This document shows, piece by piece, positions 8,097-58,601 of a stretch of 64,000 bases of DNA (positions are counted from its first letter, which is position 1; the number at the start of each line of letters is the position of its first letter). Both the position numbers and the translations under genes were made by a program. This DNA is from Desulfolutivibrio sulfoxidireducens. Its GTDB lineage: Bacteria > Desulfobacterota > Desulfovibrionia > Desulfovibrionales > Desulfovibrionaceae. Under the pieces are notes generated by a model. That model saw only the letters and a list, made by a program, of their open reading frames with translations, ran no database searches and was not told the origin of the DNA. The DNA lies in the NCBI RefSeq assembly GCF_013376475.1, contig NZ_CP045508.1, forward strand, positions 2,105,501 to 2,169,500, written 5' to 3'.

Positions 8097-8705
8097 CTAT
8101 TGTCTGTGATGGTTGGAGTTTCCGTTTTTCCCGTCGTTTGGAAACAGGCCAAACCATTCAAGAATGTAAAACACCCCGGACACCACGCTCAAAACCGCCA
8201 CGACAGCCACCAGGCCGTTCGTCACCAGGGGCAACGTCATCGTCTCCTGGTCCGCGAAAAAGGCCCGCCCCCCGAGCACGGCCAGAATGAGCAGCATCTG
8301 GGCCATGGTGTTGATCTTGCTTATCAGGATGGGATGGATGCGTTCCTTGATCTCCACCCCGGAGAACGACAGGACCGCAAGCCCGCCCACGATGATCACG
8401 TCCCGACTGACCACCACCACGGCCAGCCACCCGGGAATCCAGCCCTTGATGGCCAGACAGATGAACGAGGTGACCAGAAGCGTCTTGTCCGCCAGGGGGT
8501 CGAGCATGGCCCCAAGCCGGGAGCGTTGGTGCAGGATGCGGGCGATGGTCCCGTCCAGGGCGTCGGTGAGGCCGGCCGCGCCGAAGGTCAAGAGGGCCGA
8601 ATACAGACGCTCCTGCATGAACAAAACGACAAACACCGGGGTCAAAAGCACCCTGAAGATGGTCAGCAGATTGGGGATGGTCCAGTTTCGGTCACTCAGG
8701 CGCAT
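8097..8705 (-). CDS. CDP-alcohol phosphatidyltransferase (PgsA-like, copy 1)
   Basis: This 202-residue membrane protein contains the CDP-alcohol phosphotransferase signature near residue 45: DALDGTIAR...GAMLDPLADK, with all the expected aspartates. It probably transfers a phosphatidyl group from CDP-diacylglycerol to an alcohol such as glycerol-3-phosphate. Five to six hydrophobic helices follow. A second family member at 24181-24732 is closer to canonical PgsA, so this paralogue may have another acceptor. ATG 8705 has a weak GAGAG motif upstream; the frame is open to 8747. It is convergent with mqnA. Confidence 0.82.
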   Translation of the reverse strand: MRLSDRNWTIPNLLTIFRVLLTPVFVVLFMQERLYSALLTFGAAGLTDALDGTIARILHQRSRLGAMLDPLADKTLLVTSFICLAIKGWIPGWLAVVVVSRDVIIVGGLAVLSFSGVEIKERIHPILISKINTMAQMLLILAVLGGRAFFADQETMTLPLVTNGLVAVVAVLSVVSGVFYILEWFGLFPNDGKNGNSNHHRQ

Positions 8706-51838: not shown

Positions 51839-52333
51839 CTACGGCAAAAGGCACAGCTCCCGCACCCGGTCCGCCACCCTGGGCAGAACCGCCGTGACCT
51901 CGGGGGTCAGCCTGTCGTCGATCTCGTCCGGGATGCACCCGGTCTGGACCACCAGGATGCGCACGTCCATGCCCGTGGTCTCCTTGAGGTCCTTTAAGAG
52001 GTTCACCGACGGGAATTGATGCAGGGAAAAATCCTTGACCTTTTTCGGGCTGACCATGTCCACGTCGATCTCCCAGAACTCCCCGGCGTTGCGACTCGGC
52101 TCGGTGACCGCGTCCACCACGATGATGCGCGCCGGCTTGGGGTCCATCAGCAGCATGTCGAGAAGCACCTCCCGGATGGAGGTGCCGATGTCCAACAGCC
52201 CCACCTCGTCCGGCAATCCGCCCTGCTCCTCCAAAAGACGCACCACGGCCGGTCCCAGGCCGTCGTCGCCTTTGAGGATGTTGCCGCATCCGAAAACCAT
52301 CACCCGTTTGTGAAACATAAGCGACCAGTCCAC
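51839..52333 (-). CDS. [NiFe]-hydrogenase maturation endopeptidase
   Basis: This 164-residue protease of the HycI/HoxW family reads RVMVFGCGNILKGDDGLGPAVV, with the nickel-sensing Asp in GDDG and the later VVDAV. It removes the C-terminal peptide of the hydrogenase large subunit after nickel insertion. GTG 52333 is chosen for its AAGGAA SD; ATG 52318 is the alternative. It lies downstream of mvhA, separated by a terminator at 52360. Its target is very probably MvhA, which has a 26-residue tail after the ATH cleavage site. Confidence 0.88.
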   Translation of the reverse strand: MDWSLMFHKRVMVFGCGNILKGDDGLGPAVVRLLEEQGGLPDEVGLLDIGTSIREVLLDMLLMDPKPARIIVVDAVTEPSRNAGEFWEIDVDMVSPKKVKDFSLHQFPSVNLLKDLKETTGMDVRILVVQTGCIPDEIDDRLTPEVTAVLPRVADRVRELCLLP

Positions 52334-52424: not shown

Positions 52425-53891
52425 CTAGTAATTGCGCAAGGTGTCCAGGAGCTTCCCCTGGCTGTCGTAGATGCGGCCTTCCAGAGCGACACCGCCGTCC
52501 AGGCGGTGGGTGGCGCAGCTCATTCACGGGTCATACGCGCGTATGGTCATCTCAATGGTATTGAGCACCCCCTGGTCGTATTTGCCGTCCTTGATCAGGG
52601 CCTTGGCGGCCTGCTTGACGCCCAGGTTCATGCCCGCGTTGTTGTGGCCGGTGGCCACGATGAGGTTGGCCATGGTCACCAGGCCGTTGTCATCGGTCTT
52701 GTAGTGGTGGATCAGCGTGCCGCGCGGGGCTTCGAGACAGCCCACGCCCTCGCCGGCCCGGGGCTCGATCTTCTGATGCCGCACCTCGCGGCTGGTGATT
52801 TCGGGGTCGTTGAGGAGCTCCTCGGCCCGCTCGCAGCACTGGATGAGCTCGATCAGGCGCGCGTAGTTGTACAAAAGCGTCTGGTGGGCCGGACGGCCGA
52901 AGGCGGACCGGAATATCTCAAGTTCCTTCTGGGCCAGGGGCGTGGCCATGTGATCGCACACGTTGATGCGGGCCAGACAGTTGACCCGGTACACGCCCAC
53001 AGGATCGGTCTCGTCCAGGACCATCTTCCCGACCTTTTTCATGTACGGGAACTTGAGATAGGTCCAGGGCTCCACGTGCTCGGCGATGTAGTCCTGATAT
53101 TCATTGTACTTGAACTGCTCGTAGTTGCCGTCCCTGTCCATCATGCGCAGTTCGCCGTCATGGAACTCCAGGGCTCCGTCGCTCGGGCGCACGGTACCCA
53201 GGTACCCGGACGGGAACACGCCCACGGTGTTGATCACGTCCAGGTATTTGGGGAAGACGTTCTCCTTGGCGAACTGGAGCGAAAAGACGCTGAAGTCCAG
53301 GGCCTCCTTGACCACGGCCAGCAGTTCCTTGCGCTCCTCCTCGAGCATGGGCCGGGAATAGCCGCCGGGCACCGCCGCGATGGGGTGGATGACCTTTCCG
53401 GCGAACTTCTCCAGGGCCATCTGGACCTTGTAGCGCATGTGCACGACCTGCTTGGCCAGATCCGGGGCGGCCCCGACCACGCCGACCACGTTTCTGACCG
53501 AATAGTCGGCGTCAGGCCCCAAAACGAAGTCCGGGGCGGCCAGGAAGTAGAAGTGCAGGATCTTGTCCGGGATAAAGGCCAGCATGTGGCACAATTCCCG
53601 CAGTTTGCGTCCGGCCGGGGGCGGGGTCACGCCCAGGCAGCCGTCGGCGGCCTTGCACGAGGCCAGATGGTGGTTCCAGGGACAGATGCCGCAGATGCGG
53701 TTGACGATGTCCCGGACCTCCTCCACGGGCCTGCCCACGACGAATTTCTCGAAGCCGCGCAGGGTCATGATGGCCATGCGCGCGTCGGCCACGTTGCCGG
53801 AATCGTCGAGCATGATCTCGAACCCGGCGTGGCCCTCGATGCGCGTCACGGGCGCGACGCGGATCGTTTTGGCGATGTTTGGCGAAGCCAT
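52425..53891 (-). CDS. mvhA: Selenocysteine-containing hydrogenase large subunit (MvhA/VhuA-like)
   Basis: This 488-residue protein of the F420-non-reducing hydrogenase group has the N-terminal nickel motif RICGICPWNHH. Near the C-terminus, RAYDP is followed by TGA (52526-52524, codon 456) and then MSCATHRLDGG, so the standard DPCxxCxxH motif reads DP-Sec-MSCATH. The frame continues 32 further codons to TAG 52427. A SECIS-like hairpin lies 15 bases past the TGA. The tail after ATH is 26 residues, as expected for protease processing. ATG 53891 has AGGAGAACC upstream. It forms the active site with MvhG and passes electrons through MvhD to HdrA. Confidence 0.93.
52490..52508 (-). promoter_or_regulatory. 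SECIS-like hairpin in mvhA
   Basis: CACCGCC-TGGAC-GGCGGTG forms a 7-bp stem with a five-base loop, starting 15 bases after the TGA. It is in-frame coding sequence, as usual for bacterial SECIS elements. Confidence 0.65.
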
Positions 53892-54025: not shown

Positions 54026-54961
54026 CTAGCCGAGCTTTCGCAGCACGCTGTGCGCGCCGTTGAACCGGCACAGAAAGCCCCGCCGGTCGATCATCTTGCG
54101 CGGGTCGTAGCCCACGGTGGACAGCGCGCCCACATAGTCGATGATGGGCAAGGCCCCGTCCTTGACCGGACCGTAGCAGCCCCGACAGGGCACCCGGGTG
54201 GCGATGCACCGGGGGGCCGTTCCGGTCATGCCCGAGCAGCCGGCCCGGGTGACCGGCCCCAGACACATGAAGCCCTGCTCCAGAAGGCAGCGCATCTCAT
54301 CCACGGGCTTGTCCGGATCGAATTCCGGGGCCTCCAGGATGCGTTTGAGGTCCCCGGCGCTTTTCTTGCTTTGGCGGATGGTCGGACAGGTGTCGCACAC
54401 CGACCGCTCGGGCAGCTTCAGCTCGGTCTTGCCGTCCAGAAGGGCCAGGACGGCGGCCGTGATCCAGTCAGGATGCGGCGGGCAGCCGGGCAGCTTGATG
54501 TCCACCTTGACGTGCTCGTCCAGGGCCGTGACCGTCTCGAAGGCCTCGGGGATGTGGTAGGTCTTGAAGTCGGGATCGGGACCGGGATCGGTGGTCGGCG
54601 ACTCCCGATACATGAAGTCCTTGATTTCCTTGAGCGAATACATGTTGCCCAGGGCCGGGATGCCGCCGTCCGTGGCGCAGGTGCCCAGCGCGATCAGGAT
54701 CTGGCAGCGCTCGCGCATCTTCTCGAGCACCTCCAGGTGCTCGGAGTTGCGCACCCCACCGGACACGATGCCCACCACGGCCTCGGGGATGTCCAGTTTG
54801 GAGTTTTCGCCGGTCTGGCCGTAGTATTTCTTGTCGATCAAAACCGGGATGTGCACGAACTCAAGCTGCGGCAACAGGTCCACCAGGACGTCGCCGATGT
54901 TTAAGATCGCGATTTCGCATCCCGAACACGAGTTGAGCCATTCTTCAGCTATCTTGACCAT
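54026..54961 (-). CDS. mvhG: Hydrogenase small subunit (MvhG-like)
   Basis: This 311-residue protein starts VKIAEEWLNSCSGCEIAILN, the proximal-cluster CxxC of [NiFe] small subunits. Further cysteines in LGTCATDGG, LPGCPP, CDTCP, CLGPVTRAGCSG and VPCRGCYGP provide the remaining Fe-S ligands (three clusters expected). No Tat signal is present, so the enzyme is cytoplasmic. It lies 15 bases after mvhD and 134 bases before mvhA. Confidence 0.93.
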   Translation of the reverse strand: MVKIAEEWLNSCSGCEIAILNIGDVLVDLLPQLEFVHIPVLIDKKYYGQTGENSKLDIPEAVVGIVSGGVRNSEHLEVLEKMRERCQILIALGTCATDGGIPALGNMYSLKEIKDFMYRESPTTDPGPDPDFKTYHIPEAFETVTALDEHVKVDIKLPGCPPHPDWITAAVLALLDGKTELKLPERSVCDTCPTIRQSKKSAGDLKRILEAPEFDPDKPVDEMRCLLEQGFMCLGPVTRAGCSGMTGTAPRCIATRVPCRGCYGPVKDGALPIIDYVGALSTVGYDPRKMIDRRGFLCRFNGAHSVLRKLG

Positions 54962-54976: not shown

Positions 54977-55408
54977 TCAGGCGCACGCGGCGGCCTTCTT
55001 TTTGAGGGGGTTTGGTCCGAGAGACCGGATCTTCGCGGTGAAGGCGGTCACCACCTCGGCGAACCGGGGCGCTTCGGCCGACGAGACCCACTCGATGGCG
55101 AAACGCTCGGGGTTGATCCCCAGGTCCTCCAGAACGACCTTGGCGCCTTCGGCCCTAGCCAACGCTTTGTTATTACCGTCCAGGTAATGGCATTCACCGA
55201 GGTGTCAGCCCATGACCATGACGCCGTCCGCGCCTTTGCGCAGGGCGTCCACGATCAGGTTGGGATGCACCATCCCGGAACACATGACCCGGATGGCGCG
55301 CATGTTGGGGGGATACTGCAGACGGGAGACCCCGGCCAGGTCGCCCCCCGCGTAGGCGCACCAGTTGCACAGAAAGCCGATGATCACCGGCTCGAAGCTC
55401 TCAGCCAT
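54977..55408 (-). CDS. mvhD: Selenocysteine-containing MvhD-like electron-transfer subunit
   Basis: This 143-residue protein links hydrogenase to HdrA through a [2Fe-2S] cluster. It begins ESFEPVIIGFLCNWCAYAGGDLAG, with the conserved CNWC, then VMCSGMVHP. After VMVMG comes TGA (55207-55205, codon 68), followed by HLGECHYLDGN. In relatives this position is Cys in GGCHPGDCHY, so Sec replaces it. The frame then continues to a normal end. A standard gene caller would give two fragments of 86 and 61 residues. ATG 55408 has AAAGGAGAGG upstream. Confidence 0.93.
55172..55188 (-). promoter_or_regulatory. SECIS-like hairpin in mvhD
   Basis: ATTACC-TGGAC-GGTAAT lies 16 bases after the TGA. The loop TGGAC is identical to that in mvhA although the stems differ. 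Confidence 0.65.
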
Positions 55409-55556: not shown

Positions 55557-58500
55557 CTAGGCGCAGGTCAGGATGGTCTCCACCTGGGCCTTAAGCTGCT
55601 CCATGGTGAAACCGCCCACATTGACCCCCTGCTTGGGACAGGTGGCCATGCAGATGCCGCAGCCCTTGCACAGGGCCTTGTCCGTCTGGATGCGCTTGTG
55701 CTCGCGGCCGTTTTCCGAATAGACCACAAGGGAGATGGCGTTGTACGGGCAGGTGTCCACGCACAGGGCGCACCCGTCGCACTTGTCGGTGACCATGCTC
55801 TTTATGGAATCAAGCGGCATGACCGACTTGGCCAGGATCACCCCGGCCCGGCTCACGGCCGCCTGGGCCTGGGCCACGGCCTCGTCCACGGGCTTGGGAT
55901 AGTGGCACAACCCGGCCAGAAACAGGCCGTCCACGGACATGTCCACGGGCCGCAGCTTGGGATGGGCCTCGGTCAAAAAGCCGTCCGCGCCCACCGAACA
56001 CTTGTAGAGGTCAACCAACTCCCGGGTCTGGTTGGGCACGATGGCCGAGGCCAGGACCAGGTAGTCGGCCTTGATCTTCAGGGACCGATGCAGGATGTGG
56101 TCGTCGCCGACGACGTAGAGGGCGTCCCCTTCCTTGATCACCTTGGGCTTTTTGTCCGTCTCGTAGCGCACGAAGATCACGCCCAGGCGGCGGGCCTCGG
56201 TGTACAGGTCCTCGCGCAGCCCGTAGGTGCGGATGTCGCGGTTGAAGATGAACACGTTCATGTCCGGATTGAGCTTTTTCAGCTCGATGGCCGACTCCAC
56301 GGAATGGGTGCAGCACACCCGGCTGCAGTAGGGACGCTCGGGCTCGCGCGACCCCACGCACTGGATGAACACCACGCTCTCGGCCGCCTTGGCCGCCTGA
56401 GGGTCGGCGTCGAGAAGCGCGTCGAATTCCAGGTGGGTCTTGACCCGGTCGTCCTGGCCGTAGAGATATTCCGTGGGCTTGTACTCGGCGCCGCCCGTGG
56501 CCACCACGGCCACGCCGTAGTTGACGGCCAGGGTCTCGCCCGCCACGTCGATCTCGCTGACGAAGTTGCCCACCGAACCCACGGCGCTTTTGAGCGTGGC
56601 GTTTTTAAGGACCTTGATCCGTGGATGGCTCTCCACCCTGGCCGCCATGGCCGCCACTCTGGGCCGGATATCCTCGCCCTTCCAGGTCTTGTTAAGTCGA
56701 AGCGCGTTGCCGCCCAGGACATCGCCCTTCTCAAGGAGCACCGTCTCGTAGCCCATGTCCGCGATGCCAAGGGCCGCGGTCATGCCCGACAGGCCGCCGC
56801 CGATGACCAGGGCCTTCTGGACCACGTTGACCGAGAGGTATTCCAGGGGGGAAAGCAACCCGGCCTTGGCCACGGCGATGCGCACCTGGTCCTTGGCCTT
56901 TTCCGTGGCCTTGTCCGGCTCGTTGCCGTGCACCCAACTGTTCTGGTTGCGGATGTTGGCCATCTCCACCAGGTATTCGTTGATGCCGGCCTCGCGCAGG
57001 GTGTCCTTGAACAGGGGTTCGTGGGTCCTGGGGGTACAGGCGGCGATGACGATGCGGTTTAAGGCGTGTTCCTTGATCTTCCCGGCGATGAGCACCTGGG
57101 TGTCGGAGGAGCAGGTAAAGAGGTTGTTTTCCACAAAGACCACATGCGGCAAGGTCTTGGCGTATTCCACCACCTCGTCGACCCTGATCACCCCGGCGAT
57201 GTTGATGCCGCAGGAACACACGAAAACGCCCACACGCGGGGCGTCGGCGGAGACGTCCTTCTCGGGCGGATAGGTCTTTTCCTTGGTCAGGGTGCCCCGG
57301 CTCTCGGCCAGGGCGACGGCCGCGCAGGCCGCCGCCGAGGAGGCCTCGGTCACGGACTGAGGGATGTCCTTGGGCGACTGGAAGCAGCCGGCCACGTAGA
57401 TGCCGTCACGGCTGGAGGAGACCGGCGCGAAGCTGTCGCACTTGGCGAAACGGTACTTGTCGAGCCGTATGTCCGCGGTCTCGGCCAGGGCCTTGGCGTC
57501 GGCCGGGGCCTCGAGGCCGATGGACAGGACCACCATGTCGTAGAACTCGTCGTGTTCGAGACCCGATTCGTCAACGTAGCGCAGCTTCACACCCTTGCCG
57601 TCGGGACCCGGGGTGAAGGTATGAGGCCGGGCGCGCACGAAGGAGATGCCCTTTTTCCCTGCGTCGACGTAGTATTTCTCGAAATCCTTTCCGTGGGAGC
57701 GGATATCCATGTAGAAGACGGTCTGTCGCACGTCCCCGGTGGTGTGTTCCTTGGTCACCATGGCCTGCTTGATGGCGTACATGCAACACACGCTGGAACA
57801 AAATCCGTTGTCGCACTTGTTTATGCCGCGCGACCCGACACACTGCAGCCAGGCGATCCTCTTGGGCTCGGTGTGATCCGAGGGCCGCACCAGATGGCCC
57901 ATGCACGGACCCGAGGCGGACAGAAGCCGCTCGTATTCGAGGCTTGTGACCACGTCCTTGATCTGGGCGTAGTTGTAGATATCGAAGGCGGTGGGATCGA
58001 AGGGCTTGAATCCCGGGGCCAGAATGACCGACCCGACCTTGACCTCGACGATCCGCTCGGTGTCCGCGAAGTTTATCGCACCGGTGGGACAGTACTTTTC
58101 GCAGGCCCGGCATTTGCCCTTGGTCAGATAGATACAGTTCTCGGCGTCAATGGCGTATTTCAGAGGCACGGCCTGGCCGTACAGGATGTAGGCGGCCTTG
58201 CGCTTGTCCAGTCCCTCGTTGAATTCGTTCTCGACCTTTTTGGGACACTTTTCGGCGCACAGGCCGCAGGCGATACACTTGTCCATGTCGATGTAACGCG
58301 GATGCCGTTTCACCTTGACGGTGAAATCGCCCTGCGCGCCCTCGACAGCCACCACCTCGGACAGGGTCATCAACTCGATGTTCAAGTGCCGACCGCACTC
58401 GACCAGCTTGGGTGAGATGATTCACATGGCGCAGTCATTGGTGGGAAACGTCTTGTCGAGCTGGGCCATGACCCCGCCGATGCCCGACTTCTTTTCGACC

Positions 58501-58601
58501 AGGTAAACGTAGTAGCCGGAATCGGCCAGGTCGAGCGCGGTCTGCATGCCTGCGATGCCGCCGCCCACGACCATGACCGAACCGAGTTTTTGTACCGTCA
58601 T
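55557..58601 (-). CDS. hdrA: Selenocysteine-containing long HdrA (duplicated flavin modules)
   Basis: This 1014-residue protein is a heterodisulfide reductase subunit A. It opens [21 protein letters not shown] (FAD) and [12 protein letters not shown], then TGA (58424-58422, codon 60), then [12 protein letters not shown]. Relatives have Cys or Sec here. [4Fe-4S] motifs follow: [12 protein letters not shown] and CRACEKYCP, with a second FAD/NAD region ([19 protein letters not shown] near 450; [21 protein letters not shown]) and C-terminal [12 protein letters not shown] and [12 protein letters not shown]. This length, about 350 residues over ordinary HdrA, suggests fusion of two HdrA-like halves. 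It probably accepts MvhADG electrons and bifurcates them. ATG 58601 has AAAGGGGG upstream. Confidence 0.92.
58383..58401 (-). promoter_or_regulatory. SECIS-like hairpin in hdrA
   Basis: CGAGTGC-GGTCG-GCACTTG forms a 7-bp stem (one wobble) 20 bases after the TGA. The loop begins GGTC, as in the E. coli fdhF element. Confidence 0.6.

Follow-up and report, generated by a model that had tools for sequence, protein, structure and literature searches.

The window analysed here, a 64,000-nucleotide stretch of the Desulfolutivibrio sulfoxidireducens genome, carries on its minus strand the operon hdrA-mvhD-mvhG-mvhA followed by a gene for a HycI-type hydrogenase maturation protease, and three of these genes (hdrA, mvhD and mvhA) contain an in-frame TGA that we read as selenocysteine (Sec, U). 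The first gene, hdrA (55557..58601, minus strand), would encode 1014 residues, with the TGA at 58424-58422 corresponding to residue 60 in the context NDCAMUIISPKL. Next lies mvhD, of the FlpD family (54977..55408, minus strand; 143 residues; PF02662, 3.3e-53), whose TGA at 55207-55205 corresponds to residue 68 in the context VMGUHLGECHY. The small-subunit gene mvhG (54026..54961, minus strand; PF01058, 9.2e-30) also matches VhuG (NF045875, 1.2e-58) at a score below the curated cut-off, and the HycI-family protease gene (51839..52333, minus strand; PF01750, 9.5e-16) lies directly 3' of mvhA. The Sec codons of hdrA and mvhD are two beyond that of mvhA and were absent from the initial annotation.

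The mvhA gene (52425..53891, minus strand) has 488 codons and encodes the large subunit of an Mvh/Vhu-type (F420-non-reducing) [NiFe] hydrogenase. Its frame begins with an ATG at 53891, with AGGAG just 5' of it, and contains a single in-frame TGA at codon 456 of 488 (52524..52526, minus strand). In its context, DP-TGA-MSCATHR (DPUMSCATH), this codon takes the place of the first Cys in DPCxxCxxH, the C-terminal nickel-ligand motif; the initial annotation had located it exactly there, at 52526-52524 and residue 456. Downstream of the TGA the frame stays open for 32 codons to a TAG at 52427-52425, leaving a tail of 26 residues if the protein is cleaved after His462; both lengths had been proposed previously and are borne out by the reading frame. 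The locus thus combines a UxxCxxH motif, a 26-residue tail and an adjoining HycI gene.

Several comparisons place MvhA within the Mvh/Vhu type. Its best NCBIfam family is VhuA (NF041785, 1.1e-141), with a score of 472 bits that does not reach the curated cut-off of 800 bits set for this archaeal equivalog model; we read this shortfall as divergence within the Mvh/Vhu type. The C-terminal part of the protein matches VhuU (NF041786, 6.4e-11), and there is also a match to the Pfam family NiFeSe_Hases. With a VhuA/MvhA-family large subunit and MvhG, MvhD and HdrA as partners, the enzyme belongs among the Mvh/Vhu hydrogenases (group 3c). The closest solved PDB chains are of the VhuA/MvhA type (E about 4e-126), whereas HysA/HysB, the [NiFeSe] hydrogenase of Desulfovibrio and Desulfomicrobium, is far from MvhA in sequence (E about 1e-36). 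In HysA/HysB, too, nickel is bound by a Sec at this position of the motif; this hydrogenase is periplasmic and has a dedicated maturation protease.

To assess the conservation of the TGA, we surveyed 199 genomes of the order. An in-frame TGA was present in each match that covered the codon at 57% identity or more, and in none of the class of 42-47% identity. Reading the codons themselves, we found TGA at the exact position in the window gene and in 34 orthologues (57-97% identical), and TGC or TGT in homologues from Aminicenantes, Planctomycetota, Chloroflexi, Actinomycetota and methanogens. The gene thus shows the pattern expected of a bacterial selenoprotein, an in-frame TGA that aligns with the Cys of homologues and is kept as TGA in relatives. 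In a maximum-likelihood tree of 69 sequences, the 35 TGA forms (window included) fell on one side of a single branch, with support of 98/98 and recovery in 98% of bootstrap trees. This topology is consistent with a single switch between TGA and Cys, in either direction.

A predicted SECIS hairpin lies 3' of the mvhA TGA (52490..52508, minus strand), with a 7-bp stem (CACCGCC/GGCGGTG) and a 5-nt loop (TGGAC). Published criteria for bacterial SECIS elements ask for a stem of 4-16 bp, a loop of 3-9 nt, a spacing of 16-37 nt, a minimum free energy of -7.5 or lower and a G in the first two loop positions (PMC13188914). The hairpin starts 15 nt past the TGA and falls within these bounds, with 7 bp, the loop UGGAC at 22 nt past the TGA and -13.4 kcal/mol in a 38-nt stretch; stretches longer than 38 nt had a different minimum-energy fold, and the preferred N1-N2 loop pair is absent. 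A search of the hairpin against Rfam returned no SECIS match, only sub-threshold matches to a terminator-like hairpin. Each of the three Sec TGAs of the operon is followed by a hairpin with a G in the first two loop positions. The mvhD hairpin (approximately 55188-55172) has the same TGGAC loop as that of mvhA and a local energy of -6.8 kcal/mol, slightly weaker than the threshold, or -9.0 with a longer stretch; the hdrA hairpin (approximately 58402-58382) has the loop GGTCG.

Covariation in the mvhA stem was weak, as the stem is almost unvarying across the Sec forms: 94.3% of cells were paired, with one compensatory change in 35 sequences, a level reached by 31 of 500 shuffles. We therefore used codon-level constraint as a stronger test of the hairpin. 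Three codons did not vary at all among Sec forms: Arg at +7 (CGC in 34/34), Leu at +8 (CTG in 35/35) and Gly at +10 (GGC in 35/35). Of the 151 columns in which a residue with synonymous codons is invariant, only 4 had zero codon entropy, and these three columns were among the four. The residues of the hairpin stretch were not invariant in Cys forms.

The genome that holds the window (4.16 Mb, a single contig, 99.96% complete) was also searched for the selenocysteine decoding genes, the absence of which had been named beforehand as an outcome that would overturn the reading. Targeted searches found all of them: selA, selB, tRNA-Sec (selC, anticodon TCA) and selD, the last itself with an in-frame TGA. 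The same genome contained no second MvhA match at E <= 1e-80, and so has no obvious Cys backup copy. A congener (L142; G036:C30:42-1505) has an additional MvhA-like match with 45% identity and no internal stop, which is possibly a Cys backup.

Two other explanations of the mvhA TGA were considered. Read with the standard code, the gene would yield a 455-residue product from the ATG at 53891 that lacks the last two metal ligands, as might be expected of a degraded hydrogenase gene whose TGA is either a genuine stop or the result of a sequencing error. Against this, TGA recurs at the same codon in every close orthologue across independent genomes and the downstream frame is kept, silent sites past the TGA are frozen, and the genome has the machinery for Sec decoding; we consider a degraded gene to have almost no chance of being correct. 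Chance or sequencing error as the origin of the codon is excluded by the recurrence of TGA at this codon in independent genomes, together with TGC or TGT outside the Sec clade.

TGA is misread at low rates in some bacteria, and readthrough could here insert a standard amino acid such as Cys or Trp, without selenium, an option that gains from DNA alone being the basis for telling readthrough from Sec. The presence of a full Sec system together with a SECIS-like hairpin speaks against it, however, as does the fact that in three genes of one operon the TGA stands exactly for a conserved Cys. Moreover, a second TGA in mvhD (54979-54977), 76 codons past the Sec TGA, is an ordinary terminator, so this organism does not generally read TGA as sense. 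Selenium-free readthrough is thus very improbable. The initial proposal that the TGA specifies selenocysteine is supported by the sel genes, by the TGA of every close orthologue and by the frozen SECIS hairpin, and from this evidence we conclude that, at the nickel-binding site of MvhA, the internal TGA almost certainly specifies selenocysteine.

In the working model that follows from this reading, SelB would bring Sec-tRNA-Sec to the ribosome through the SECIS hairpin just 3' of the TGA, and Sec456 would serve as a terminal nickel ligand in an [NiFeSe] large subunit of the MvhA/VhuA type. The adjacent HycI-type protease would be expected to remove the 26-residue tail. As the hairpin runs from codon 462 to the first base of codon 468, we infer from the [NiFe] maturation scheme that cleavage would remove all hairpin-encoded residues except His462; with most of the hairpin encoding a tail destined to be cut, the RNA signal would be of little cost to the mature enzyme. 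MvhAG would oxidise H2 and MvhD would pass the electrons to HdrA, the putative flavin-based electron-bifurcating partner, a route proposed by analogy with the established Mvh/Hdr complexes.

Much of this arrangement has precedent. A 2026 review lists MvhA, MvhD and HdrA among the selenoprotein families, and an hdrA-frhD-frhG-frhA selenoprotein operon was described in Deltaproteobacteria and archaea (methanogens) in 2006 (PMC1794560); the window operon has the identical four genes, order and three selenoproteins. In Syntrophobacter this operon adjoins a GlpC selenoprotein gene, whereas the ORF lists contain none immediately upstream of the operon here. In the sulfate reducer Desulfobacterium autotrophicum HRM2, a cytoplasmic Sec-MvhA is clustered with Sec-HdrA (MvhA2DG-HdrA1; PMC2702500, 2009), a likeness to the window operon that we know from the description, although the HRM2 cluster is also linked to periplasmic HysAB. 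Methanococcus VhuA/VhuU (NF041785/NF041786) likewise has a UxxC motif in which Sec takes the place of the first Cys, but there the Sec part is a separate small subunit, whereas the window MvhA is one polypeptide. Archaeal SECIS elements are found mostly in the 3' UTR (2026 review). It is therefore well supported that the mvhA TGA is real but essentially ordinary, the triple-selenoprotein operon having been described since 2006, a precedent absent from the initial annotation. What novelty remains concerns how widely such genes are distributed and how their partners are exchanged.

The TGAs of mvhA, mvhD and hdrA were found together in most Sec relatives with enough flanking sequence. One locus (L082) had a Sec MvhD with a Cys MvhA, and another (L077) had a Cys HdrA with Sec MvhD and Sec MvhA; these mixed states indicate that the three sites are able to switch separately. 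MvhD and HdrA were undetected near Sec-MvhA in L136 (G186) and L133 (G183). In L136, Sec-MvhA adjoins ORFs of which one resembles, by eye, a molybdopterin oxidoreductase and another an iron-sulfur protein, a hint that its electron partner differs. A Thermoanaerobaculia MAG (L116, an Acidobacteriota bin) had TGA in both mvhA and mvhD (positions 8351 and 5569), which may reflect a binning error or a sulfate-reducing acidobacterium.

Sec hydrogenases of the MvhA kind have been called exclusive to sulfate reducers and methanogens (2026 review). We put forward only tentatively, as a rather doubtful possibility, that Sec-MvhA extends beyond these groups, that some Sec-MvhAG have partners other than MvhD/HdrA and that selenium use is broader than reviews state. 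For the organism itself, mvhA, mvhD and hdrA should be annotated as full-length selenoproteins and not as truncated genes, and our reading predicts that selenium would be needed for its H2-dependent Hdr electron transfer.
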